The notes under the pieces are model-generated. The model was given only the letters and a program-made list of their open reading frames with translations, had not been told where the DNA came from and made no database searches. From contig NZ_SBJL01000002.1 in NCBI RefSeq assembly GCF_004634425.1, positions 496,001-560,000 of the forward strand: a stretch of DNA of 64,000 nucleotides, written 5' to 3'. Positions 24,609 through 36,794 of this stretch are shown in pieces. How positions within the stretch are numbered: the first letter of the stretch is position 1; every line of letters starts with the position of its first letter. Source of the stretch: Vitreimonas flagellata (GTDB taxonomy: Bacteria > Pseudomonadota > Alphaproteobacteria > Caulobacterales > Aquidulcibacteraceae). Position numbers and translations under genes: made by a program.

Positions 24609-25163
24609 TTAAGTCAGGCCATGCTCGGCAAGACGCGCGCGTGCGTCAGCCACCAAAGCATCGAAGCCTGCCCCCTTCTGCCGCAACGCCGCGCGCGATT
24701 GCGCAATTTCCTTGAGGGCCAGCGCCCACGATTCCGGGAACGCCGCCTCTAAACGCTCACGCGCCGCGCGCGCGACAGCGGGGCTTGCGCCGCCCGTGCC
24801 TGCCGCAAGTGTCAGCTGACCGCGACGCAAAACCGCCGGCGTATGAAAATCGCAGAGCGGCAACACGTCTTCGACATTGACCAATACGTTCGCACTGCGC
24901 GCCGCGTTGGCCACCATCTCGGCGCGCTCATACGGCAGGTCGGCGATCCACACGGCGTGATAATCCGCGAGTTCGTCTTCCTTCGGCAGACGGCGCTCGA
25001 AGCGGCCGTTCGCGGTGGTGAGCAGCTCGTGCGACGGCTCGTCGGACCAGACGTCGGGCGCCGCGCCGCCTTGGATGAGCCAATTCAGACGCCGCACCCC
25101 AAGTGCGCCGCGGCCGATGAGAGCGATGCGCGTTTGCGCGGGATCAAGATAGAGCGGAATCAT
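24609..25163 (-). CDS. cysG: Siroheme synthase N-terminal domain protein (precorrin-2 dehydrogenase/ferrochelatase)
   Basis: A 184-residue protein equal to the N-terminal half of CysG (Met8-like). It oxidises precorrin-2 and inserts iron to give siroheme, the cofactor of sulfite reductase. It has the NAD-binding segment ALIGRGALGVRRLNWL and a later VLPLCDFHTPAVLRRGQLTLAAGTGG region with family features. The methyltransferase half is a separate gene just upstream (cobA, 4-base overlap). Confidence 0.87.
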   Translation of the reverse strand: MIPLYLDPAQTRIALIGRGALGVRRLNWLIQGGAAPDVWSDEPSHELLTTANGRFERRLPKEDELADYHAVWIADLPYERAEMVANAARSANVLVNVEDVLPLCDFHTPAVLRRGQLTLAAGTGGASPAVARAARERLEAAFPESWALALKEIAQSRAALRQKGAGFDALVADARARLAEHGLT

Positions 25164-25903
25164 GCTGCATTCGCCGCTTCAAGAGCGCCGCGTGCTTCAC
25201 GCGCGACCTCGCCAACAACCATAATCGCCGGTCCTTCGCCCACCTGAGCCGCGAGCGCCGTCAATTCTGAGAGCGTGCCGCGCATGACGCGTTGTTCAGC
25301 CCACGATGCGCTTTCGATCAAAGCGACGGGGCGATCGGCGGGCACGCCAAGATCAGTAAGCGCATCGCGCACGCGCTCGGCATGCATAGCGCCCATATAG
25401 ATCACCGCCGTTTCGGCAGCAGCGGCGGCGCGCGCCCAATGCATGTTCTCCGCCCCACCCTTTGCTGTGCTGGGCGTGACGAACGTGACCGAGCGCGAGA
25501 GGCCGCGCGAGGTGAGCGATACACCAAGCGCGGATGCCGCGGCGAAGCCCGCGCTAACGCCAGGTACCGTGGTGACAATGATGCCCGCGGCGCGGCAGGC
25601 TTCGATCTCTTCGGTGGCGCGGCCAAACAGATGCGGATCGCCGCCCTTCAGGCGCACGACGTTTTGATAACGCAGCCCCATGCGCACCAGCAGTCGTGAA
25701 ATCAAGCGCTGATCCATTGACGGCCGATTGGCGCGCTTGCCCACATTGTAGAGCTTCGCCTTGGTCGCGAGCGCAAGCACATCGGCGCTGACCAGCGCGT
25801 CGTAAAGCACGACATCCGCTTCCGCGAGCAGACGCGCGGCGCGCAGCGTCAAGAGATCGGCCGCGCCCGGGCCGGCGCCGACGAGATAGACAGTCCCACT
25901 CAT
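25160..25903 (-). CDS. cobA: Uroporphyrinogen-III C-methyltransferase
   Basis: A 247-residue SAM-dependent methyltransferase that makes precorrin-2 from uroporphyrinogen III, the first committed step to siroheme. Typical motifs are VGAGPGAADLLTLRA at the N-terminus, RLKGGDPHLFGR and VTFVTPST. It overlaps cysN and cysG by 4 bases on either side, so the siroheme genes are produced with the sulfate genes that need them. Confidence 0.94.
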   Translation of the reverse strand: MSGTVYLVGAGPGAADLLTLRAARLLAEADVVLYDALVSADVLALATKAKLYNVGKRANRPSMDQRLISRLLVRMGLRYQNVVRLKGGDPHLFGRATEEIEACRAAGIIVTTVPGVSAGFAAASALGVSLTSRGLSRSVTFVTPSTAKGGAENMHWARAAAAAETAVIYMGAMHAERVRDALTDLGVPADRPVALIESASWAEQRVMRGTLSELTALAAQVGEGPAIMVVGEVAREARGALEAANAA

Positions 25904-27156
25904 TGCACGATCTCCCGGATCATACCGGCGGCGGCGGTTTGGTTGGTGTCAGGATCGAACAGCACGAACGCGCCGGTGCCCGGCAGTTCGGCGAAGAGAT
26001 CAGCCAGGATCGGATCGCGCGCGGCAAGTTGAACGCTGGCGATGTCATTGAGCTTCAGTTCGTTCGCCGGGACGTTGTCGAGATTGCTGACATCGCGCAC
26101 GAAGCGGACATTCTCGATCAAAGCCTGCGTTTCGAGCGCGCCTTGGCGCAAACGATAGCGACGTGCAGGCGTCCAAGCATTTTCGTCGAGCCAGCAGAGA
26201 TCGGCCACGACGCGGCGCGCATAACGCACATCGTTATCCGCGATGACGCCGCCTTGGGCGAGATCACGATCTTCGGCGAGTTCAACGGCGACGGAGGCGC
26301 CGGCTTCGGCATAGGCCACGCCTGCGCCGCCGATGCGCACTTGCGCGACCGTGGCGGCAAACGCGCCGGGGCCGACGCGCACTTTATCGCCCGGCTTTAC
26401 GGCGCCGGATTCGATGCGGCCGGCATAGAGCCGAATATCGCCGTCACGCAGCAACAATTGCACCGGCAGACGCAACGGCGCGTTCGCGAGCGAGGTCTTG
26501 CGCGGAGTGTCTTCAAGCAATTCGATCAGCGTCGGGCCGTTGTACCAATCGGGCCCGCCGCGATTGACGATGTTCTCGCCGCGCTTGGCCGAGACCGGCA
26601 CGAAGGCGATGTTCTTGATGTTGAGAATGCCCGCGACATCGTTGAACGCCGCACGCACTTCATCAAAGCGCGCCTGCGACCAGCCGACGAGATCCATCTT
26701 GTTAACGGCGACGATGATGTTGAGGCCCATCAGAGCCGCAACCGCAGCGTGACGGCGCGTCTGCGGCTTCAGCTGCCCCTGCTCCACGCGCGCCACGTCG
26801 ATCACGATCACGGCAACGTCCGAGACGCTGGCGGCGGTGACCATGTTACGCGTGTATTGTTCGTGGCCGGGCGAATCCGCGATGATGAAGCTGGTGCGCG
26901 GGGTCGCGAAATAGCGATAAGCGACGTCGATCGTGATGCCCTGCGCGCGTTCAGCCTCTAAGCCATCCGTGAGCGCGGCGAGGTCGATGTCCTCGCCATC
27001 GAGACCAGCGGCTTGGTCGAGCATCAGCACTTTGGAATCGAGCAACAGACGTCCGATCAGCGTCGACTTGCCGTCATCGACACTGCCGGCCGTCATGAAG
27101 CGGACTTGTTCGCCGCTCCAATTCTGCGCCGGCGGGAAATAGCTCGCGCTATCCAT
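25900..27156 (-). CDS. cysN: Sulfate adenylyltransferase GTPase subunit CysN
   Basis: A 418-residue GTPase that drives APS formation with CysD. The P-loop GSVDDGKST is at about residue 24, DSPGHEQY is the G3 region and NKMDL the G4. Two beta-barrel domains follow. The chain ends there: there is no fused CysC (APS kinase) domain, which fits reduction of APS directly by the CysH encoded upstream. I start at the ATG at 27154-27156, which overlaps the cysD stop (TAATG); the longer frame to 27303 lies within cysD. Confidence 0.95.
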   Translation of the reverse strand: MDSASYFPPAQNWSGEQVRFMTAGSVDDGKSTLIGRLLLDSKVLMLDQAAGLDGEDIDLAALTDGLEAERAQGITIDVAYRYFATPRTSFIIADSPGHEQYTRNMVTAASVSDVAVIVIDVARVEQGQLKPQTRRHAAVAALMGLNIIVAVNKMDLVGWSQARFDEVRAAFNDVAGILNIKNIAFVPVSAKRGENIVNRGGPDWYNGPTLIELLEDTPRKTSLANAPLRLPVQLLLRDGDIRLYAGRIESGAVKPGDKVRVGPGAFAATVAQVRIGGAGVAYAEAGASVAVELAEDRDLAQGGVIADNDVRYARRVVADLCWLDENAWTPARRYRLRQGALETQALIENVRFVRDVSNLDNVPANELKLNDIASVQLAARDPILADLFAELPGTGAFVLFDPDTNQTAAAGMIREIVQ

Positions 27157-28085
27157 TAGAAATAGCCTTCCAGCTTGCGGCGCTCCATCGCCGCCGCATT
27201 TGCGCGATCGTCCATGCGCGTCGCGCCGCGCTCGGAGACGGAGGCGGTCAGCGTCTCCAACAGCACGTCCTCGGCGTTGGCCGCGAAGCTCTCGACCGGG
27301 CACGTGCAGGTGATGTCGCCCACGGTGCGGAAACGCACGGGCACACGCTCAATACTCTCGCCCGCCTGCGGCGGCGTGATCGCGGTGACCGGGAAGAGCA
27401 AACCTTCACGGCGCACGACGTCGCGGTCGTGCGTGTAATAAAGCTCGGGTAACTCGATATTCTCGCGGGCGATGTAGGCCCAGACGTCGGCCTCGGTCCA
27501 ATTCGAGATCGGAAAGACGCGCATGTTCTCGCCGACGCCGATGTGGCGATTGTAGAGGCCCCACAGCTCCGGGCGTTGCGCGCGCGGGCGCCAGGCGCCG
27601 AACGCATCGCGGTGCGAGAACACACGTTCTTTCGCCCGCGCCTTCTCTTCGTCGCGACGGGCGCCGCCGATCAGAGCGTCAAATTCAAACTCTTGTTGCG
27701 CCTCCAGCAGCGTCACGGCTTGGGCGCCATTGCGGCTGGCGGTTTCGCTGGCGACACGCACGCTGCCGCGGCGGATCGAATCTTCCACGCTGCGCACGAT
27801 GAGCTTTAGCCCCGTCTCTTCCGCGCGCTTGTCGCGGAAGGCGATCACTTCCGGAAAATTGTGCCCAGTGTCGACATGCAGCAACGCGAACGGCGGCTTC
27901 GACGGCGCGAACGCCTTCATCGCCAGATGCAACAGAACGGCGCTATCTTTGCCGCCGGAGAACATCAAAGCCGGGCGCTTGTAGAAGGAAAGCTCGCGCA
28001 GAATGTAGACCGCCTCGGCTTCGAGACGATCGAGCCGCGCGGACGCGGTCAGCGGCGCTGGCGCTTGAAGAGCTTCGCCGCTCAT
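27156..28085 (-). CDS. cysD: Sulfate adenylyltransferase small subunit CysD
   Basis: A 309-residue PP-loop ATPase subunit that condenses ATP and sulfate to APS together with CysN. Motif SGGKDSAVLLHL binds ATP; LLHVDTGHNFPEVI and GARRDEEKARAKER are typical of the family. I start at the ATG at 28083-28085, overlapping the cysH stop, because the extension to 28292 is only the shadow of cysH. ERRKLEGYF at the end is the usual CysD C-terminus. Confidence 0.96.
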   Translation of the reverse strand: MSGEALQAPAPLTASARLDRLEAEAVYILRELSFYKRPALMFSGGKDSAVLLHLAMKAFAPSKPPFALLHVDTGHNFPEVIAFRDKRAEETGLKLIVRSVEDSIRRGSVRVASETASRNGAQAVTLLEAQQEFEFDALIGGARRDEEKARAKERVFSHRDAFGAWRPRAQRPELWGLYNRHIGVGENMRVFPISNWTEADVWAYIARENIELPELYYTHDRDVVRREGLLFPVTAITPPQAGESIERVPVRFRTVGDITCTCPVESFAANAEDVLLETLTASVSERGATRMDDRANAAAMERRKLEGYF

Positions 28086-29329
28086 CAGCGCGTCACGTTC
28101 TGCATCGTATGCAAGCCGCATTCTTTGCTGTCCTGATTTTCCCACCACCAACGGCCATTGCGCGGGTCTTCGCCCGGACGAATGGCCTTCGTGCAAGGTT
28201 CGCAACCAATGGAGACGTAGCCGCGCTGATAGAGCGCGTTCATCGGGATATCGAAGCGCGTCGCGTAGGCGAGCACATCGGCCCAATTCCAATCCGCGAG
28301 CGGATTGTATTTGTGCATATCGCGCTCGACGTCGCGCTCAGATTCCGGCAGCGCGCCGCGTGTAACCGCTTGTTCGCGGCGTTGGCCTGTGAGCCAGGCG
28401 TCGCGACCGTTCAAAGCTTCGTCGAGCGGTGCGACTTTGCGAATGTTGCAGCAGAGTTTGCGCGCGGCGACGCTATCATAAAAGCCGTCCTTGCCGTGCG
28501 CGGCGATATAAGCGGCGATTGCGTGCTCATCCGGGCGGCGCACGTCGATCTCGATGCCGTAGCGCTCCTTCACTTGCGGGATCAGTGCCAGCGTTTCCGG
28601 ATTGAGGCGGCCAGTTTCGAGCGTGAAAACATCGATCGGCAAGTTGAGGCGCGCGATGACGTCGGTGATCACCATGTCCTCGGCTGAGAGGCTCGAGGCC
28701 AGCGCCGGGCGCTCGTGGCGTTGCGCGATCTCGATGAGCGCGCGCTCCAGCAGGCGGACGCGGGCGGTGAAATTCGCATCCGCGCGATCCACCGCTGTGC
28801 CGGCGACGACGGCGCCTTGATACGGCACGCTGAACGTATCCAGCGCCGCGAGCGCAGTGTCAGCGTTTTGGTCAGCGCGCAGCGCGAAGGAATCAAACCC
28901 GACGCGCGCCATCGCGAAGACCTGGTCCGCCGTGATCGCGCCTTGCGCGCGTAGGCGGCCTTGGTAGTTCAAACGCTTGCGCAACAGGACAGCATGCGAA
29001 TAGCCGCGCCCGTCGCCGATGCGGTGAAAGTCGACGGAGATGAGCGCCGCGTTGCCAATGCGGCCGTCGAGCTTTTTCACATCGTCGGCCGGCTGCAACA
29101 GGATGGCGCCGCCCTCTTGCGAGCCGTCGAGCCATTCCTGCATCGACAGATACTGGCCGCCCTCCCATTCCTTGCTGGTAGGCTCGGTCGGCTGCTTTAC
29201 GTTCGGCACGATCTTCTTGCGCACGTCGCCGTGGCCTTCATTAGCCGGCTTTGGCGGCGTGAACTCGCGCACGGCAGCCTCACCGATTATCTTCGCGCCT
29301 TGCGCGTCGAGTTCGATCAAGAGGCTCAT
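28085..29329 (-). CDS. cysH: DUF934 - assimilatory APS reductase (CysH) fusion
   Basis: A 414-residue two-part protein. Residues about 50-165 are a DUF934 domain (SHAVLLRKRLNYQGRLRAQG, FAMARVGFDSF), usually a separate small gene beside cysH. Residues about 175-414 are an APS reductase that uses thioredoxin-type electrons to turn APS to sulfite. The 4Fe-4S ligands C293-C294 and C376-C379 and the active-site C404 in ECGLH mark an APS rather than PAPS enzyme. No APS kinase was seen, which fits. No frameshift or stop separates the parts, so it looks like a true fusion. It overlaps the sulfite reductase gene by 4 bases. Confidence 0.93.
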   Translation of the reverse strand: MSLLIELDAQGAKIIGEAAVREFTPPKPANEGHGDVRKKIVPNVKQPTEPTSKEWEGGQYLSMQEWLDGSQEGGAILLQPADDVKKLDGRIGNAALISVDFHRIGDGRGYSHAVLLRKRLNYQGRLRAQGAITADQVFAMARVGFDSFALRADQNADTALAALDTFSVPYQGAVVAGTAVDRADANFTARVRLLERALIEIAQRHERPALASSLSAEDMVITDVIARLNLPIDVFTLETGRLNPETLALIPQVKERYGIEIDVRRPDEHAIAAYIAAHGKDGFYDSVAARKLCCNIRKVAPLDEALNGRDAWLTGQRREQAVTRGALPESERDVERDMHKYNPLADWNWADVLAYATRFDIPMNALYQRGYVSIGCEPCTKAIRPGEDPRNGRWWWENQDSKECGLHTMQNVTR

Positions 29330-30972
29330 GCTGCAGTCTCCTCAGCGAGAGCGGCTTTGAACGCGTCCGTGCCGAGGCGTTCGACGGCGGCGATGAAGCT
29401 CTCGCCTTCGTTGCGGACATCGAGATAATGGCGTGCGAGGCGATCGATCACGCCGGGCACATCTTCCTGGCGTACGGATTTGCCCGTCAGCACGCCGAGA
29501 CGGCCCACGCCGTCAGGGCGGCCGCCCAGCAGGATCTGATACCAATCTTCGCCCGCCTTCTCGACGCCGAGCACGCCGATATGGCCGACGTGATGGTGCG
29601 CGCAGGCGTTGATGCAGCCCGAGACATTGATAGCGATAGCGCCAATTTCTTCTTCGATCGGCGCGAGCTTCTCCGCAATCGCGGCGGAGAGCGGGATCGA
29701 TTTGGCGTTGGCGAGCGAGCAGAAATCACCACCGGGGCAGCAGATGATGTCCGACGCCATGTCGATATTGGCGCGTGCAAGGCCCCGTGAATCCAATTCG
29801 CTGAACAGCGCGTGCAGCTTGGCGCGCGGCACATGCGGCAAGATCAGGTTCTGGTGATACGAGACGCGGACTTCGTTGAAGCTATAGCGATCCGCAAGAT
29901 CGGCGATGAAATCCATTTCGTCCGAGGTCGCATCGCCCGGCGCGATGCCTTCGCGCTTCAGGCTGATCGTGACCGCCGCATAGTCCGCGTGGCGATGCGC
30001 CGTGAGATTGCGCTTCTTCCAAGCGTGGAAGTTCGGATCGACAGCGAGCGTCTTCGACGCCGGCTCCGACCAGGTTTCGAGCGGCGGGTCGATGAAGAAT
30101 TGCGCGACGCGGTCGAGCGCGTCTTGCGTCAGCGTGTTCGGGCCATTGCGCAGGTGCGCCCAATCGGCTTCGACCTCAGCCGCGAAGGCTTCGGCCCCCA
30201 GCTCTTGAACTTGGATCTTGATGCGCGCCTTGAAGATGTTGTCGCGACGGCCGAGGCGATTGTACGCGCGCAGCACCGCCTCGGTGTAGGTGAGCATTTC
30301 GCTCCAGTGCAGATCGCGCCGGATGATCGAGGCGAGGCGTGGCGTCCGGCCCTGCCCGCCGCCGACCTTCACGATCAGGCGCACTTCGCCGGCCTCGTCG
30401 CGATAGAGATCAAACGAAAGATCATGCACCGGCGTCGCCGCGCGATCTTCCTTGGCGCCGTTGAACGCGACTTTGAACTTGCGCGGCAGATGCGCGAATT
30501 CCGGATGCAGCGTTGACCATTGGCGCATCAATTCGCAGTACGGACGCGGATCGACGATCTCGTCTTGGGCAACGCCAGCGAACGCATCCGTGGTGACGTT
30601 GCGCACGCAGGAGCCGCTGGTCTGGATCGCGTGCATGGAGACAGTCGCGAGCTCGGCCAGAATGTCCGGCACCTCTTCGACCTTGACCCAATTGTATTGG
30701 AGGTTCTGGCGCGTGGTGAAATGCGCGTAGCCGCGATCATAGCGGCGCGCGATGTCGGCCAGTTTGCGCAGCTGCGTGGACGAGAGCACGCCGTAGGGAA
30801 TGGCGATGCGCAGCATCGGCGCGTAACGCTGGATGTAGAGCCCGTTCTGGAGCCGCAGCGGCTTGAATGCGTCTTCGTCCAACTCGCCCGCGAGATAGCG
30901 GCGCGTCTGGTCGCGGAATTGCGCTACGCGTTCCTCAACGATGAGGCGGTCGACGGCGTCGTAGCGGTACAT
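29326..30972 (-). CDS. cysI: Ferredoxin-type sulfite reductase hemoprotein
   Basis: A 548-residue siroheme enzyme that reduces sulfite to sulfide. Two pseudo-repeats are seen, each with a substrate segment (HFTTRQNLQY). The siroheme and 4Fe-4S ligands lie in CCPGGDFCSLANA and SGCINACAHHHVGHIG. The protein is longer than nothing unusual for the NirA/SiR group. No flavoprotein CysJ is present; fpr at the end of the operon could supply ferredoxin. A nitrite reductase role is possible by family, but the neighbours point to sulfite. It is the first gene of the sulfate operon. Confidence 0.9.
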   Translation of the reverse strand: MYRYDAVDRLIVEERVAQFRDQTRRYLAGELDEDAFKPLRLQNGLYIQRYAPMLRIAIPYGVLSSTQLRKLADIARRYDRGYAHFTTRQNLQYNWVKVEEVPDILAELATVSMHAIQTSGSCVRNVTTDAFAGVAQDEIVDPRPYCELMRQWSTLHPEFAHLPRKFKVAFNGAKEDRAATPVHDLSFDLYRDEAGEVRLIVKVGGGQGRTPRLASIIRRDLHWSEMLTYTEAVLRAYNRLGRRDNIFKARIKIQVQELGAEAFAAEVEADWAHLRNGPNTLTQDALDRVAQFFIDPPLETWSEPASKTLAVDPNFHAWKKRNLTAHRHADYAAVTISLKREGIAPGDATSDEMDFIADLADRYSFNEVRVSYHQNLILPHVPRAKLHALFSELDSRGLARANIDMASDIICCPGGDFCSLANAKSIPLSAAIAEKLAPIEEEIGAIAINVSGCINACAHHHVGHIGVLGVEKAGEDWYQILLGGRPDGVGRLGVLTGKSVRQEDVPGVIDRLARHYLDVRNEGESFIAAVERLGTDAFKAALAEETAA

Positions 30973-31109
30973 TGCAAAGGCGGCCTAGGGAGACGGGCCG
31001 CGCGACGGCCCACCGAGCCCAGACAATGGGCGCCGCAGCGCAACCGAGGTAGGTCGCGCCGCTTAAGCGTGGCTTTAGGGAGCCTGATACCCCACCTAAA
31101 GCGTCGAGA
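30973..31109 (-). promoter_or_regulatory. Gap upstream of the sulfate operon with inverted repeats
   Basis: A 137-base gap between the LysR gene stop and the sulfite reductase start. It holds an 8-bp inverted repeat GCTTTAGG (31072-31079)/CCTAAAGC (31095-31102) with a 15-base spacer, and the 10-bp palindrome CGCTTAAGCG at 31060-31069. The first could be a hairpin ending the LysR message, but no T-run follows. They could equally be operator sites, possibly for the LysR protein. Confidence 0.4.
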
Positions 31110-32078
31110 TTAAGCTGTGTGGTCGGCCGCTGAATCGCCCTCGATTGCTTGGGCGCGGAGCCAATCGAGGAAAGCCATTTGCGCCGGTTCGAACCGGCGT
31201 CCGCGCGGCCAGACCAGCCAATAGGCGAAGTTCACCGGCGCCTCGGCTTCCGAGAGCGGCGCCACCAGGCGGCCGTCAGCAATGTCGCCCAAGGCGAGTT
31301 GACGCTTGGCCAAGGCCAAGCCCTTACCGCCGATCGCGGCCTCGATGGCGAGGCTCGATTGATTGAAGCGCAGCCCGCGCTCGGCGTCGGCGCGGCGCAA
31401 ACCGCGCGCGGCGAACCACATGCCCCAGGTTGGGCAGGACGGATCGCGCTCGGGCGCATCGTCGTGGATGAGCGGCAGATTGATCAGATCAGCCGCGGTT
31501 TTCGCGCCCGTTTGGCCTTCGAGCAGACGCGGACTGCACACAACGACAACGGATTCCGTCATCAGCCGCTCGCAATGCAGCCCTTCGTAGCCGCCCGGTC
31601 CGTAGCGGATGGCGAGGTCCATATCGCTGCCGGAGAAATCAGTGAGCGTCATGTCGGCGGACATGCGCACTTCCGTGTCGGGATAGAGCTCCTGAAACTG
31701 GCTCAATCTGGGAATGAGCCATTTCGAGGCGAAGGACGGCGCGGTCGAAATCGAGATGCGCCGTCCGCGCAGCGCCGAGCGCATTGCCCGGCCAGCTTGC
31801 AGCATTTCCGCGATCGCGGCGCTGGCGTGGGCGAAGGCCGATTTGCCAGCTTCAGTGAGTTCAACGCCGCGCCCCAAACGGCGAAACAGCGGCTGGCCGG
31901 CGAATTCCTCGATCGAGCGGATGTGCTGGCTCACGGCGCCGGCGCTAATGCCCAGCTCCTCCGCCGCCCGGGCAAAACTGCCCGACCGCGCCGCCGCCTC
32001 GAAAACCCTGAGGCTCACGAAAGGCGGCATAGGGTCTTTCAGATCTTCCAAGGGTCGCTCCGGCCGAGCCGCCAACAT
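31110..32078 (-). CDS. LysR family regulator (GcvA/AmpR-like)
   Basis: A 322-residue LysR regulator. N-terminal winged helix: LRVFEAAARSGSFARAAEELG ... AVSQHIRSIEE, followed by the effector-binding domain (ISTAPSFASKWLIPRL, DMDLAIRYGPG). The wording DLAIRYG is typical of the GcvA-like branch rather than of CysB. Start choice: ATG at 32076-32078 has AGGGA 7 bases upstream; an alternative ATG is at 32028-32030. It lies upstream of the sulfate operon on the same strand and may regulate it, although this branch does not usually govern cysteine genes. Confidence 0.85.
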   Translation of the reverse strand: MLAARPERPLEDLKDPMPPFVSLRVFEAAARSGSFARAAEELGISAGAVSQHIRSIEEFAGQPLFRRLGRGVELTEAGKSAFAHASAAIAEMLQAGRAMRSALRGRRISISTAPSFASKWLIPRLSQFQELYPDTEVRMSADMTLTDFSGSDMDLAIRYGPGGYEGLHCERLMTESVVVVCSPRLLEGQTGAKTAADLINLPLIHDDAPERDPSCPTWGMWFAARGLRRADAERGLRFNQSSLAIEAAIGGKGLALAKRQLALGDIADGRLVAPLSEAEAPVNFAYWLVWPRGRRFEPAQMAFLDWLRAQAIEGDSAADHTA

Positions 32079-32196
32079 AGGCGTCCCTGCTGCAATGCAC
32101 CAGGACTCGCCAACGTGACGCCGCGTGCGATGCAATTGGCGCAGTGGCGTTGGCGCTTTCCTTCACGCTTACCGGACGAAGCAGATGCGGCCCGCA

Positions 32197-33471
32197 TCAA
32201 ATGACCAGAGGCTCCCCGCCGCTCACCAGAATCTCTTTCGGCGCTGGGTGAGAGAGGAAGTTCACGGGGCTGGCTGTGAGACCGTAGGCGCCAGATTGCA
32301 GCACGGCGACCAGGTCGCCGGCGGCGAGCACAGGTAGTGCAGTCTGTCGCGCAAGCGTGTCGAGGGGCGTGCACAACGGCCCGACCAAAGCGGCGACATC
32401 CTGAGCCGCCGCACGCAGTTTGGTTGCGGCCACAATCGGATAATCGCGTTTCATCACCTGACCCAAATTTCCGGACGCGGCCAGATGATGATGCATGCCG
32501 CCGTCGGCCACGACAAAGCGTGTGCCGCGCGATTGCTTCACGGCGCGAACAGACATCACATAGATCCCCGCCTCACCCATGAGGAAGCGACCAGGCTCAA
32601 GCACAACGCGCGCGTCGCGCAAAAGCGCATCGCTCGCTTTGCGCGCTGCAAGCCTGGATGCGCCGGCGGCGATCTTACCAAGATCAAGCGCGCGGTCTGC
32701 GCCATGATACGGAATGCCTAGCCCGCCGCCGAGATCGATCGTCTCAATCGGCCTTTCAATCATTTGCGCAACGCGCGCAGCGACGTCCAGGCCGTGGCCC
32801 CATTGCACCAGCAGCGTATCGGCATCGAGAATCTGCGTGCCAGCAAACAAATGCACGCCGACCAAGTCGAGCATCGCTTGGCCAGCCAGCGCCTCGATCA
32901 CATCCGCGAGGCTCTCTTCGTCAAAGCCGAAGGCGGCTGGCTTGCCGCCCATACGCATAGCGCCGCCCTGGGCCGCCGCGATCGGGTTTACCCGTATGCC
33001 TATGCGGACGCGTTGACCCGCATCCTGCGCCAACCGCCCCAGTGTCTGAATCTCTTCGAAGCACTCCACGTGAACCTCGCCGATGCGCGCACGCACGGCG
33101 AATTCAAGCTCGGACTCTCCCTTGCCTGGACCGGCGAAGAGGATGCGCGACGCTGGCGCGCCGGCCTGCAGCGCAATCTGCAGTTCGCGCGCCGACGCCA
33201 CCTCAAGGCCGGCGCCCTCTTCGACAAAGAGGCGCGCAATCTCCGGATTGGGATTCGCCTTCACCGAGTAGAAGACACTGGCGAAGCCTGACACGGCCGC
33301 CGACAAATCCCGATAACGGCGTCGCGCAATGTCGGCGTCGTAAACAAAAAGCGGCGAGCCGTGCTCATGCACAAGACGCGAGATCGGCACGCCGCCGATC
33401 AGAAGCTCGTCCGTCCCACCGAAATTACGCGCGAGAAGTTCGGCCGCGAGCGAGGCTATGTGCGCGCTCAT
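32197..33471 (-). CDS. PLP-dependent decarboxylase, exosortase-A-associated type
   Basis: A 424-residue fold-type III decarboxylase related to diaminopimelate and ornithine decarboxylases. PLP Lys71 is in FYSVKANPNPE; a GGGLGIPY phosphate-binding loop and the VGPLCTPLDT and GAYGLT segments are present. It matches the decarboxylases found beside an AMP ligase and an ACP in exosortase-A clusters. It overlaps the ligase stop by 4 bases. In butirosin biosynthesis a comparable enzyme (BtrK) decarboxylates an amino acid held on a carrier protein. The true substrate here is unknown, and the usual free diaminopimelate role is less likely from context. Confidence 0.85.
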   Translation of the reverse strand: MSAHIASLAAELLARNFGGTDELLIGGVPISRLVHEHGSPLFVYDADIARRRYRDLSAAVSGFASVFYSVKANPNPEIARLFVEEGAGLEVASARELQIALQAGAPASRILFAGPGKGESELEFAVRARIGEVHVECFEEIQTLGRLAQDAGQRVRIGIRVNPIAAAQGGAMRMGGKPAAFGFDEESLADVIEALAGQAMLDLVGVHLFAGTQILDADTLLVQWGHGLDVAARVAQMIERPIETIDLGGGLGIPYHGADRALDLGKIAAGASRLAARKASDALLRDARVVLEPGRFLMGEAGIYVMSVRAVKQSRGTRFVVADGGMHHHLAASGNLGQVMKRDYPIVAATKLRAAAQDVAALVGPLCTPLDTLARQTALPVLAAGDLVAVLQSGAYGLTASPVNFLSHPAPKEILVSGGEPLVI

Positions 33472-34964
33472 TGCCCGCGCTCGCGCTTCAGCGTCTGATA
33501 ATCCACCTTGCCGTTCGGCGTTGTCGGCAGAGCGTCCACGAGTTCGATACGTGCGGGCATCATGTGAGTGGGGAGATGCTGCGCCGCCTGCGCCAGCACC
33601 GTTTTGGTGTCGAGGTCAGGCTCCAAAGCGACGGCGATGGCGTGAACTTTCTGACCGACCCACTCGTCCTTCACGCCGATCACCGCGACGTGCTTGAACG
33701 CGCCTGTCGCCATCAACACCTCCTCCACTTCAGTCGGGGAGATGCGGAAACCTGCGGATTTGATCATGCCGTCTTCGCGGGCGACAAAATAGAGATAGCC
33801 CTCTTCGTCTTCGGTCACCAAATCGCCAGACCAACACACGATATCGCCGCCCGTCACGGCGTCGTTGAACGGATTGCGCCGCAGGACTTGCGCCGTGTCC
33901 TCCGGCCGATTCCAGTAACCGAGTGAAACCGTCGGCCCGCGATGCACAAGGATGCCAGGCTCACCGGGCTTGGCGCGGCGACCATCCGCGGTGAGCGGAA
34001 ACACTTCGCATTCCGGAATGGCCTTGCCGATCGACGTTGGTCGAATCGACACTTGGTCCGGCGGAAGATAGGTCGAGCGAAACGCTTCGGTCAGCCCATA
34101 CATCAGGAAGATCGACGTCTTTGGCAGCAATTCCTGAAGCTTCGCGACAGTCGCGGACGGCACTGCGCCGCCCGAATTGGTGATGTAGCGCAGATGCGGC
34201 AAGGGCGTGCGCGGCAAGCTCGGCGCGGCGCGCGTCAGCACCGACCACATTGTCGGCACGCCCGCCAGGCCGGTGATCTCATGCTCGACAAGCTTGCGTA
34301 CGAGTTCGTCGCCGAAGCGGAAGCTCGCGAGCACCAGCAACGCGCCCTGCTCAACCGCCGTCAGCAATTGGTTGAGGCCATAATCGAAGCTGAATGGCAG
34401 AATAGAGAGGATGCGGTCGCTCGGATTGATGCCGAGATATGTCCGGACGATGCGCGCGCCAGCGAGCAGGTTCCGGTGATTGAGCATCACGCCCTTCGGA
34501 CGCCCGGTTGATCCGGACGTGTATAGGATCGCGGCAAGGTCTTCGCCGATGGCGCGAGACGCGGGCGCCATCGTATCTGGCCGTTCGTCGACCAATGCGA
34601 CCCCAAGCAAATCCGGGCAAGCCTCCTCCAAACCCGATAGAAATTCGGGCGCGCTGATCAGAACGCGCGCGCCGCAATCGTCGATAATGTGGCGCACCTG
34701 GGCGGGCTTGAGAGCGGCGTTGATTGGCACAAACACGCCGCCGGCACGGCTGATGGCGAAGATCGCCACACATTCTTCAAGGCTCTTGGGCAAAAAGATC
34801 GCCACGCGATCGCCGCGTGCGACACCTGCATTGACAAGCTTCGCCGCCATCTGTTCGACGGACGCGGCGAACTGGCCGAACGTTAAACGCCGCGCGCCAT
34901 CGACGAGCGCCAGCCGTTCGGGCTCGCCACTGCGCTGATCCAGTAAGTGATGCAGGAGATACAT
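33468..34964 (-). CDS. AMP-forming acyl/amino-acid ligase, exosortase-A-associated type
   Basis: A 498-residue adenylate-forming enzyme. A3 loop LYTSGSTGRPKGVML, A5 YGLTEAF, A7 SGDLVTEDEEGYLY, and A10 TTPNGKVDYQTL with the catalytic Lys. It activates a carboxylic acid with ATP and probably passes it to the ACP encoded 7 bases upstream. I start at the ATG at 34962-34964, right after the ACP gene, because the extension to 35162 is only the shadow of the ACP. Acid substrate (fatty or amino acid) cannot be told. It is translationally coupled to the decarboxylase. Confidence 0.88.
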   Translation of the reverse strand: MYLLHHLLDQRSGEPERLALVDGARRLTFGQFAASVEQMAAKLVNAGVARGDRVAIFLPKSLEECVAIFAISRAGGVFVPINAALKPAQVRHIIDDCGARVLISAPEFLSGLEEACPDLLGVALVDERPDTMAPASRAIGEDLAAILYTSGSTGRPKGVMLNHRNLLAGARIVRTYLGINPSDRILSILPFSFDYGLNQLLTAVEQGALLVLASFRFGDELVRKLVEHEITGLAGVPTMWSVLTRAAPSLPRTPLPHLRYITNSGGAVPSATVAKLQELLPKTSIFLMYGLTEAFRSTYLPPDQVSIRPTSIGKAIPECEVFPLTADGRRAKPGEPGILVHRGPTVSLGYWNRPEDTAQVLRRNPFNDAVTGGDIVCWSGDLVTEDEEGYLYFVAREDGMIKSAGFRISPTEVEEVLMATGAFKHVAVIGVKDEWVGQKVHAIAVALEPDLDTKTVLAQAAQHLPTHMMPARIELVDALPTTPNGKVDYQTLKRERGQ

Positions 34965-34971
34965 GGCGCCG

Positions 34972-35238
34972 TTAAGCCGCCACTGTGAGCCGACCGGCGA
35001 GGTAGCGGCTGAGCGTGCCGATCGTCTCGAAATTCTCCGGAATGAAGTCCTCGTCCGCGACTTGAAGCCCGAACACCTCCTCCAGGCGCGCGGTGAGCTG
35101 CAATATGCCCAAGGAATCAAGGGCGCCGCCTTCGAGGAGGGGCGTGTCGCGATCAAGTACAAGTCCGGGCGGCGCGGACGTCGCAGTACTCAAGAACTCG
35201 CAGATCACCGTGTAAATTTCCGTCTCTTTGGCGCTCAT
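34972..35238 (-). CDS. Acyl carrier protein
   Basis: An 88-residue acidic carrier protein with the phosphopantetheine site Ser42 in GALDSLGILQL. It is separate from the fatty-acid AcpP context: the next gene is the AMP ligase, 7 bases away. The ATG at 35236-35238 has GAGGGAAG upstream. It is the likely hub of the cassette, holding the substrate for the decarboxylase and perhaps for the acyltransferase-like protein further upstream. Confidence 0.88.
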   Translation of the reverse strand: MSAKETEIYTVICEFLSTATSAPPGLVLDRDTPLLEGGALDSLGILQLTARLEEVFGLQVADEDFIPENFETIGTLSRYLAGRLTVAA

Positions 35239-35321
35239 GATCTTCCCTCAACACAAATGGATGCCGCGCCGCGTGGGGCGCGCACTGGTGGTCTACACGC
35301 GGGCGAAGGCCGGCGTGTGTG

Positions 35322-35633
35322 TTAGAGGAAGAGTCGAGGCGGCTCTGTGGGCGGCGGACAATCGGCGGCCAAGAAAGGCGGGGCCCGCATGCCCCAAGCG
35401 CAGTTCAAGAAGTGTGCAGGAATTGGCGTGACATGATGCGTTGGGCGCACGAAAACGTCCGCCTTGGCGTCTACTTCACGCTCCGAGCCCGCCGCGGTGT
35501 CGCCATCCACGTCGAGAGACCCTGCCAGGCACGTTTCCATCGACACGCACGGATCGCCGACCGCGACGGCCGTCGCGATCGTGCCGTGAATCAAAAAGCA
35601 CAGCGCCAAGAGGAGTGTCACGAGGGTGCGCAC
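35322..35633 (-). CDS. Small secreted protein of unknown function
   Basis: About 103 residues with a strong signal peptide (TLVTLLLALCFLIHG), then a short mature part with four to five cysteines and a Pro-rich end (DCPPPTEPPR). No ATG is available; the best start is the GTG at 35631-35633, with a TTG at 35657 as the alternative, and no clear ribosome site for either. The mature segment resembles small exported proteins seen beside metal or drug efflux genes, but I do not recognise the family. The gene sits on the same strand, between the acyltransferase-like gene and the ACP, so it may belong to the cassette. Confidence 0.5.
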   Translation of the reverse strand: MRTLVTLLLALCFLIHGTIATAVAVGDPCVSMETCLAGSLDVDGDTAAGSEREVDAKADVFVRPTHHVTPIPAHFLNCAWGMRAPPFLAADCPPPTEPPRLFL

Positions 35634-35713
35634 AAGGCATGGGTAGCGGGCGCCCAAGGCGCGATCAAGCGCGACTTATGCTTAAGCGAAATTCAGCCGA
35701 CAGGTGTGTGAAT

Positions 35714-36538
35714 TTACCAATCGAACAGCGACAATTCCGAGCCCAGATAATCGGTGATATCAGGAGAGACCGCGCCTCGGGCGAAGCGAATTTCGCGTCC
35801 CGCCCGGAGCCAGCCACGCGGCGGCGTTCTTTCCACTGGGGCCTCCAACTTCACCAGCCCGATCGCTTGGCGCCGGAGGTGTTTCGACAGCGCCCCCATA
35901 TGATCGTGAAGCATCTGATTGGCGCCGCAATATAGAATGTGCGCCGTGCGCACCCCCCTGAATTTCACCACGCGATACAAAAGGGGAAGCTGCGCGCCAT
36001 CACGTGTGTGCAACATGACGGCTTTCGCGCCAAAGCGTTGGTGCGCATGCAGCAACTCGCCCAGCGGCGTGGCGGCAACGTTTAGATCGACGACTTCGCC
36101 ACCGCCTTTGTGGAACGCCGCTAGATCAAGCACAAAACCCTGCGTAATGGGCTTGAACCCAAATGTGGGCAAGAGCGCCTGTACGGCTTGGGAGGGCGTC
36201 AAATCGGTGAGCACGTCGCAGGGCGTGCGGTTCAAGGCGCGCAACATCAAGGGGGCGCGCCAACGCTGATCGGGCTCCACATACCAAGCCGCAAAATTGA
36301 GATTCACACGCACGCCCATGTCAGAGGGGCGGCGGCTAGCGATCGTCAGCGCAACACCTTGAGCGCGCCCGTCCGTGCGCATGATCTGCCCCACCGGCAG
36401 CCCGAGCGCACGATTTTCCCCAAGAGTGTCGATGCGTTGGAGTGCGTCTTCCCAATACGCACTGGAACGCAAGGGAAAGCCTTTGGCCAGCAGATCGCAG
36501 GCCTCACCAAGAGTGTTGTGTTCAATGGCTTCAATCAT
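35714..36538 (-). CDS. GNAT-like acyltransferase protein
   Basis: A 274-residue soluble protein with two apparent halves. The first has the look of a GNAT acyl-CoA transferase: LNFAAWYVEPDQRWRAPLML resembles the acetyl-CoA binding region, followed by the FGF turn. The second half (VMLHTRDGAQLPLLYRVVKFRG) resembles it too. Such proteins occur in exopolysaccharide and exosortase clusters. ATG at 36536-36538. It could move an acyl group onto the product of the ACP/ligase/decarboxylase genes that follow. A 256-base gap separates it from the TetR gene upstream, with nothing recognisable inside. Assignment is by pattern only. Confidence 0.6.
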   Translation of the reverse strand: MIEAIEHNTLGEACDLLAKGFPLRSSAYWEDALQRIDTLGENRALGLPVGQIMRTDGRAQGVALTIASRRPSDMGVRVNLNFAAWYVEPDQRWRAPLMLRALNRTPCDVLTDLTPSQAVQALLPTFGFKPITQGFVLDLAAFHKGGGEVVDLNVAATPLGELLHAHQRFGAKAVMLHTRDGAQLPLLYRVVKFRGVRTAHILYCGANQMLHDHMGALSKHLRRQAIGLVKLEAPVERTPPRGWLRAGREIRFARGAVSPDITDYLGSELSLFDW

Positions 36539-36794
36539 TCCTCGCCCTTTGCCGCAGAATGCGGCGCGATGAAACCCACTGATTTTGAATTATATCAAGC
36601 GTCGCTAAGAACCGCTGCTGGATGGCGCCGTGCGACAACGCGCGCCTCTACCTATCGGGCTTGATCGCTGGCGCGGAGTCGCGCAACGACCGAGCGCCAA
36701 AGGCTGAGAGCAGCGAATATCCCAGAAAACACCTGCCGCCGACCGCGGCTCATAACGGACCCACGAACGAGCGCTAGCACGTGACTTTCACGGC

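Follow-up and report, generated by a model that had tools for sequence, protein, structure and literature searches.

A putative exosortase-independent cassette for the synthesis and transfer of an omega-aminoacyl group in Vitreimonas flagellata

We have analysed a stretch of 64,000 nucleotides from the alphaproteobacterium Vitreimonas flagellata (contig NZ_SBJL01000002.1, positions 496,001 to 560,000; referred to in full as the window), which contains a compact gene cassette built around an acyl carrier protein (ACP). All of its genes lie on the minus strand and are transcribed in the order GNAT-like protein of 274 residues (36538–35714), small open reading frame (ORF; 35657–35322), ACP of 88 residues (35238–34972), AMP-forming ligase of 498 residues (34964–33468) and fold-III pyridoxal 5´-phosphate (PLP) decarboxylase of 424 residues (33471–32197). 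The last three were described in the original prediction as a tight trio with a phosphopantetheine site at Ser42, and the coordinates bear this out: 7 bases separate the ACP stop from the ligase start, and ligase and decarboxylase overlap by 4 bases. The ORF list holds an earlier TTG start for the ligase at 35162; the ATG at 34964 matches the starts of its relatives. The ACP is recognized by the Pfam PP-binding model (PF00550; 37.0 bits, cut-off 20.8) and has its DS motif at Asp41-Ser42, both residues being invariant in 14/14 aligned ACPs. In what follows, G### denotes a genome and L### a locus; G000 is the window's own genome and G052 one congener that carries the cassette.

The ligase falls in an alphaproteobacterial group of its own. 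In a quick tree of 80 rows (the 92 ligases examined minus 15, plus three ligases from the window's own genome as outgroup), the exosortase-free ligases form one clade of 15 (Shimodaira-Hasegawa-like approximate likelihood ratio test, SH-aLRT, 100), separate from gamma- and betaproteobacterial ligases. It spans Rhizobiaceae, Phyllobacteriaceae, Xanthobacteraceae, Methylobacteriaceae, Phreatobacteraceae, Beijerinckiaceae and the window's own family. The trio of adjacent genes, in the order ACP, ligase, decarboxylase, recurs in 14 of its 15 loci (the window counted), and the GNAT-like gene adjoins the trio in nine of these 14. Such conserved adjacency argues that the layout is not a product of chance.

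The best NCBIfam match of the ligase is TIGR03098 (573.6 bits, under the curated cut-off of 592.35). With the whole protein, the PDB listing was filled by a two-domain nonribosomal peptide synthetase (NRPS), and the pocket fragment (residues 186–310) was searched instead. Entries 3wv4/3wvn came first (E 6e-12) and 5jjp next, with no other at 1e-6. We take these to be VinN and CmiS6, respectively, the residue numbers agreeing with those of VinN. The recognition triad of VinN, Asp230/Ser299/Arg331, falls at chain positions 246/315/347 (one constant offset of 16), and these substrate-binding residues align with Asp194/Ser264/Arg296 of the cassette ligase. The pattern Asp-[Ser/Thr]-Arg is kept in 92/92 ligases: as Asp-Ser-Arg in 15/15 from the clade and in 57 of the 77 from elsewhere, exosortase-linked ones included, and as Asp-Thr-Arg in the other 20. 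The total is biased for loci found by pattern, since two of the six peptide patterns used to search for ligase loci (FSFDYGLN and MYGLTEAF) fall within the pocket region; all 11 loci found via the decarboxylase alone (L013–L023), which are free of this bias, have the triad as well. Elsewhere in the same genome, 20 further AMP-binding matches (distant rows, roughly aligned) all lack the full triad; position 296 is filled in 14 of them and is Arg in a single one, which has Gly at 264 and is gapped at 194. Arg296 was also absent from seven of seven ligases that lie near relatives of the GNAT-like protein but have no decarboxylase of this kind nearby; these have Pro, Phe, Val or Ala at 296, and four keep the Asp. 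From these residues we infer that the ligase may activate the side-chain carboxyl of Asp or Glu, an activity that would fit the chemistry of the cassette because a PLP decarboxylase needs the alpha-carboxyl free.

For the decarboxylase, the best NCBIfam match is TIGR03099 (416.5 bits, under the curated cut-off of 478.45). The suggested likeness of ligase and decarboxylase to the exosortase-A-associated pair therefore holds at the level of best but sub-cut-off matches. Among PDB entries, BtrK, which is the L-glutamyl-[BtrI ACP] decarboxylase, scores highest with 288 bits (E about 1e-84), ahead of the best diaminopimelate (DAP) decarboxylase at 179 bits, in support of the likeness to BtrK proposed earlier. 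The enzyme stays below the cut-off of the lysA model TIGR01048 (285.7 bits vs 297.9), and the genome encodes a separate LysA that exceeds it (472.5 bits). The segment MNDLIRPA of this LysA aligns with MHHHLAAS of the cassette enzyme, the Arg of IRPA becoming Ala331. We take this Arg to be the residue of LysA that binds the far carboxyl of DAP. At its place, 82 of 84 aligned decarboxylases have Ala, Ser or Thr, and two have gaps. The likeness to BtrK, the missing Arg and the separate lysA led us to reject a DAP or ornithine decarboxylase.

The 274-residue protein scores over the cut-off of no Pfam or NCBIfam model, including those for GNAT, and seven of its relatives are likewise without an NCBIfam match. 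Its GNAT-like character, as earlier proposed, was instead established by structure comparison. An AlphaFold2 model based on an 11-row alignment (predicted local distance difference test, pLDDT, 80.0; predicted template modelling score, pTM, 0.71) replaced a first model based on 8 rows (pLDDT 71.4, pTM 0.48, GNAT matches at TM about 0.35). Foldseek matched the new model to the tandem GNAT 2ozg with E 6e-11, and VIA-align gave Z 14.7 for 2ozg over 248 residues (root-mean-square deviation 4.3) and Z 13.8 for Eis. As modelled, the protein has a tandem-GNAT fold. FemX-type and FeeM-type GNATs are absent among the 50 VIA-align matches listed, which excludes nothing. The usual acetyl-CoA loop of GNAT enzymes is RxxGxG/A. 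Its place reads RxxA[P/T] in all 8 rows of one alignment (A1) and RxxS in three more distant rows of another (A5).

What this protein does is suggested mainly by its company. Counts of GNAT genes linked to the trio are biased, the loci having been found by the ligase, and we rely on a class-wide GNAT search of 385 genomes that is free of this bias. It returned six matches of at least 100 bits (the window's own included), all six beside ACP and ligase genes. In L132, L134, L135 and L136, the GNAT relative is accompanied by an ACP, a ligase and a protein of 239–244 residues, identified as a reductase with Pfam in L132 and with NCBIfam in L134; the ACP calls are weak in L134 (E 6e-3 and 1.6e-4 in two scans) and L136 (E 1e-3 and 8.4e-4). 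A PF00282 decarboxylase gene lies some 4 kb away in L134. In L133, the GNAT gene starts 41 bases after the end of an amino acid--[ACP] ligase (484.9 bits, cut-off 357), in the company of an ACP gene and one resembling acyl-CoA dehydrogenase. Ligases of this last kind occur in 15/385 genomes at E <= 1e-20 (nine over cut-off) and the GNAT protein in 13/385 (own included), with five genomes having both (hypergeometric p 5e-5, to be read with the fact that some of these genomes share one genus and are not independent). Six of the nine over-cut-off genomes (G245, G342, G190, G339, G417 and G375) gave no GNAT match in the class-wide search. Within the trio loci, the GNAT gene follows the decarboxylase in L027, and a relative also adjoins the trio in two Blastopirellula loci, whose genomes carry exosortases. 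That a close GNAT subfamily accompanies several carrier-protein loading systems is the main ground on which we read the protein as a transferase.

Based on these observations, we propose that the ligase would adenylate the side-chain carboxyl of Asp or Glu (3-methyl-Asp is possible) and load it onto the phosphopantetheine of Ser42, as its pocket residues suggest. The decarboxylase would then remove the free alpha-carboxyl to give beta-alanyl- or 4-aminobutyryl-ACP, a step modelled on the likeness to BtrK. Finally, in view of its fold and its neighbourhoods, the tandem-GNAT protein would take the positively charged omega-aminoacyl group from the ACP and move it to an amine (or hydroxyl) acceptor. 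This acceptor would be encoded outside the cassette, and our guess is an amino sugar of a surface polysaccharide. Side-chain loading and alpha-decarboxylation on the ACP are probable from sequence comparison, and transfer from ACP to acceptor by the GNAT protein has about even chances. The polysaccharide acceptor is a tentative suggestion. That the genes make up a self-contained cassette that both makes and passes on an omega-aminoacyl group is an interpretation we favour by a little.

Several observations weigh against this interpretation. The ligase pocket shows several substitutions relative to VinN (Tyr195 in place of Phe, Asn198 in place of Tyr), so that Asp and Glu cannot be told apart from it, and one ligase of the clade (L025, 67% identity) has neither ACP nor decarboxylase within 10 kb. 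The closest solved GNATs listed for the model are acetyltransferases by title, several with acetyl-CoA or CoA bound, and no ACP-dependent enzyme is among the structural matches listed. In G052, the GNAT gene (L013, 11668–12488, minus strand) is split by a frameshift into two overlapping frames, which may reflect a sequencing error or a pseudogene. No GNAT relative is adjacent in five of the 14 clade trio loci, and four of these genomes (G342, G291, G453 and G454) are without one anywhere at E <= 1e-4, so that a GNAT step is not common to all carriers; in the fifth, Methylobacterium oxalidis, a relative lies elsewhere, beside Wzz, heparinase-like and UDP-GlcNAc epimerase genes. Eight further GNAT matches score below 100 bits, and the six surroundings examined (two on contigs of less than 5 kb) yielded a single piece of a ligase and no ACP.

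The neighbourhoods are also divided on the acceptor. In a scan of 30 neighbours in eight other clade loci, we found two polysaccharide deacetylases and a family 2 glycosyltransferase in L015, Polysacc_synt_3 and Wzz in L026, where a radical SAM gene adjoins them, a polysaccharide deacetylase and an acyltransferase 3 in L027, and a GINT1-like protein in L028. A polysaccharide deacetylase gene also lies beside the GNAT cluster in L132. Together with those near the cassette in L015 and L027, it suggests that the amine of a surface sugar may be freed and then re-acylated. There is no such deacetylase among the scanned neighbours of L024, L026, L028, L029, L030 and L032. A further count against the proposal is that polysaccharide-related genes of any kind were seen neither in the window nor among the scanned neighbours of L024, L029, L030 and L032, which include chemotaxis, BrkB, DctP, RraA, GidA, chorismate-binding, transglutaminase and Nramp genes. 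With none seen in the window or in four of the eight loci, the surface sugar stays a guess.

The original prediction noted that exosortase, PEP-CTERM and glycosyltransferase genes are lacking. For exosortase, this holds genome-wide: PF09721 has no match in the window's genome, which is 99.97% complete, and an exosortase encoded elsewhere in it was rejected on the same search. The PEP-CTERM model PF07589 has one match in the genome, at 13.7 bits below the cut-off of 20.7, and none above it; the model spans only 24 positions and might overlook a sorting signal that has diverged. The absence of a glycosyltransferase from the window is partly checked: neither glycosyltransferase nor exosortase is among 25 listed of the 35 Pfam families matched at 1e-8 by 36 of the 62 ORFs. 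Among 40 genomes with relatives of the trio, an exosortase was found in 0/15 from the ligase's own clade vs 18/25 of the others, which were picked by hand, several of the genomes in both sets being metagenome-assembled and of untold completeness. Since the defining features that we looked for are missing, we place the cassette outside the exosortase system. For comparison, 29 crudely called ORFs of three exosortase-A loci (L047, L058 and L094) were scanned with NCBIfam at 1e-40. The families listed (25 of 122) include hydrolase 1, the PEP-CTERM response regulator and the XrtA glycosyltransferase, and no FemAB or deacetylase is among them. Polysaccharide deacetylases appear among the families correlated with the PEP-CTERM/EpsH system (PMC1569441).

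Alternative roles for the cassette differ in what becomes of the aminoacyl group. The GNAT protein could cap it, using acyl-CoA or acyl-ACP as donor to acylate the free amine while the omega-aminoacyl group is on the ACP, to give N-acyl-beta-alanine or N-acyl-4-aminobutyrate. In favour of such capping, beta-alanyl-ACP has been proposed to be N-acylated in bolagladin biosynthesis (PMC7756342), and VinM aminoacylates 3AIB-VinL (PMC11284099). The best structural matches listed are, moreover, acetyltransferases. We nevertheless consider capping a minority option, for the place of the acetyl-CoA loop departs from the usual motif in the 8 rows as well as in the three distant ones, and relatives of the protein stand beside ligase-reductase systems and beside amino acid--[ACP] ligases, which would be expected to carry different acyl groups. 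A donor site that reads the ACP, as in transfer to an acceptor, fits this distribution better. Alternatively, the aminoacyl-ACP could supply the starter unit of a polyketide or nonribosomal peptide whose genes lie at another site of the genome; starter units are so supplied for vicenistatin and bolagladin, where the same three kinds of enzyme are found (VinN/VinL/VinO and BolO/C/N). The genome does have an NRPS-like frame of 1946 codons with two AMP-binding matches (contig C2, 197238–201449), but it is about 330 kb from the cassette, the scan of 30 neighbours in the eight clade loci turned up no polyketide synthase or NRPS gene, and the cassette is without an acyltransferase of the VinK kind. 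This makes the supply of starter units improbable.

Other explanations do away with the shared pathway. If ligase and decarboxylase acted on unrelated free substrates (a fatty acid for the former; DAP, ornithine or lysine for the latter), their adjacency would be merely regulatory. The name of TIGR03098, acyl-CoA ligase, and the score of the decarboxylase on lysA, which comes near the cut-off, could be so explained. This account would have to accommodate a genome with its own LysA, a BtrK-like decarboxylase without the Arg of LysA, a ligase whose amino acid pocket has Asp194 and Arg296, and an ACP next door in 14 of the 15 clade loci, and we give it little credence. Least plausible is a functionless remnant of an exosortase-A locus after loss of the exosortase. 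Relatedness to TIGR03098 and TIGR03099, rarity within the genus and the split GNAT gene in one of the two carriers would agree with decay. Against this, the genes are open in the window, the pocket is conserved, the supported clade includes six named alphaproteobacterial families besides its own, and two relatives have the unit at different loci, which would be expected of a selected cassette.

Each of the enzyme types, and its chemistry, is known individually, and the omega-aminoacyl cassette that we propose is best placed by comparison. It shares with the exosortase-A pair the closest curated families, the usual adjacency of ligase and decarboxylase, and the triad found in all 77 ligases outside the clade. 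It differs from that pair in falling below both cut-offs, in its separate clade with no exosortase in 15 genomes, in its GNAT partner of a family of its own, and in having the ACP directly upstream on the same strand, where loci such as L016–L018 have it apart on the other strand. The vicenistatin (VinN/VinL/VinO), fluvirucin (FlvN) and bolagladin (BolO/BolC/BolN) systems are similar in combining a free-standing adenylating enzyme, an ACP and a PLP decarboxylase, and the cassette ligase carries the three recognition residues of VinN. In contrast to them, no polyketide or NRPS genes were seen to adjoin the cassette. VinM and VinK have no counterpart in it, a GNAT protein being found instead, and pocket positions 195 and 198 differ from VinN. 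VinN, VinL and VinO carry out loading and decarboxylation with 3-methylaspartate, and the thioester must precede decarboxylation, according to PMC11284099. In butirosin biosynthesis (BtrI/BtrJ/BtrK), the resemblance lies with the decarboxylase, which best matches the aminoacyl-ACP decarboxylase BtrK. The loading enzymes differ: BtrJ is an ATP-grasp ligase, and that of the cassette is an AMP-forming ligase. Finally, HfsK of the Caulobacter holdfast, a GNAT protein proposed to acylate exopolysaccharide, is Fem-like and has no ACP or ligase partner in the portion of its description at hand (PMC5362036); we liken it to the cassette GNAT by description and not by sequence.

The ligase and decarboxylase of the exosortase-A system have so far been named by association only. 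Within the literature searched, most subscription journals lying outside it, we found no treatment of their function or of this GNAT family. As far as these searches show, the exosortase-free clade is new, as are the family of its GNAT partner and the prediction of a substrate for the exosortase-A family of ligases. The triad extends the prediction (the side-chain carboxyl of Asp or Glu) to the entire ligase family, and the clade suggests that the chemistry is independent of exosortase; the same chemistry may account for two genes of the exosortase protein-sorting system that have lacked an explanation. Through the GNAT family, which Pfam and NCBIfam models miss, several systems for loading carrier proteins, an amino acid--[ACP] ligase among them, are linked to a probable subsequent reaction. 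One intriguing, if rather speculative, possibility is that the cassette is a portable, tRNA-independent device for tagging a surface molecule with beta-alanine or 4-aminobutyrate, that the unnamed tandem-GNAT family reads acyl-ACPs from unrelated loading systems, and that the exosortase-A pair performs the same chemistry inside an exopolysaccharide locus.

The cassette is rare and appears to move. At E <= 1e-60, the decarboxylase is found in the window's genome, in one of 29 other members of the genus and in none of 30 genomes from 13 other genera of the family; at 1e-80, it is found in 11/385 sampled genomes of the class, own included, of which only two others exceed 50% identity (G342, 60%; G291, 54%). 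A block at 32181–36613 (no strand assigned), common to the window and G052 at 85.6% nucleotide identity, delimits the cassette as a unit and is the sole blastn match at 1e-5 between the window and 19 kb around the G052 cassette. In the window, sulphate-assimilation and LysR genes flank it at one end, and TetR, SDR and MatE genes follow at the opposite end. The former flank (25160–32051, minus strand) is conserved in members of the genus that are free of the cassette. In G052, it is found about 2.1 Mb from the cassette, with 89% identity up to window position 32105, and has no cassette at its side. From the different loci in the two genomes, the genes behave like a block that can shift its position. 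Conservation within the genus does not extend to the right flank (TetR, SDR), so no clean insertion boundary can be drawn, and the repeats found in and around the cassette are imperfect or short, none being taken as the end of an element.

The small ORF is a doubtful member of the unit. It was seen only in the window and G052, with an identity of about 50% compared with 94–97% for ACP, ligase and decarboxylase, and two indels within it are of three bases each. It has a hydrophobic N-terminus and is possibly a fast-evolving secreted protein; the earlier view of a small secreted protein as part of the system found no support.

Some neighbouring arrangements are worth recording. Next to the ligase of L025 (9989–11506) lie genes for TetR, an amidohydrolase and an enoyl-CoA hydratase. 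In L133 and G199, relatives of the GNAT protein occur near amino acid--[ACP] ligase systems (NF005479, seryl-tRNA synthetase-like), with a loading enzyme unrelated to that of the cassette and no decarboxylase of its kind close by. The cluster in L133 (5114–8916) may hint at what these ligases do, and in G199 (L135, 8421–14400) a GNAT-ACP-ligase cluster stands beside an amino acid--[ACP] ligase, about 2.6 kb from the GNAT relative, and a second ACP gene. In a Nitrospira locus (L036, 7417–12870), could a different GNAT family have the same role? An Acetyltransf_6 (PF13480) gene lies there between the ACP and ligase genes, with another GNAT-like gene upstream.

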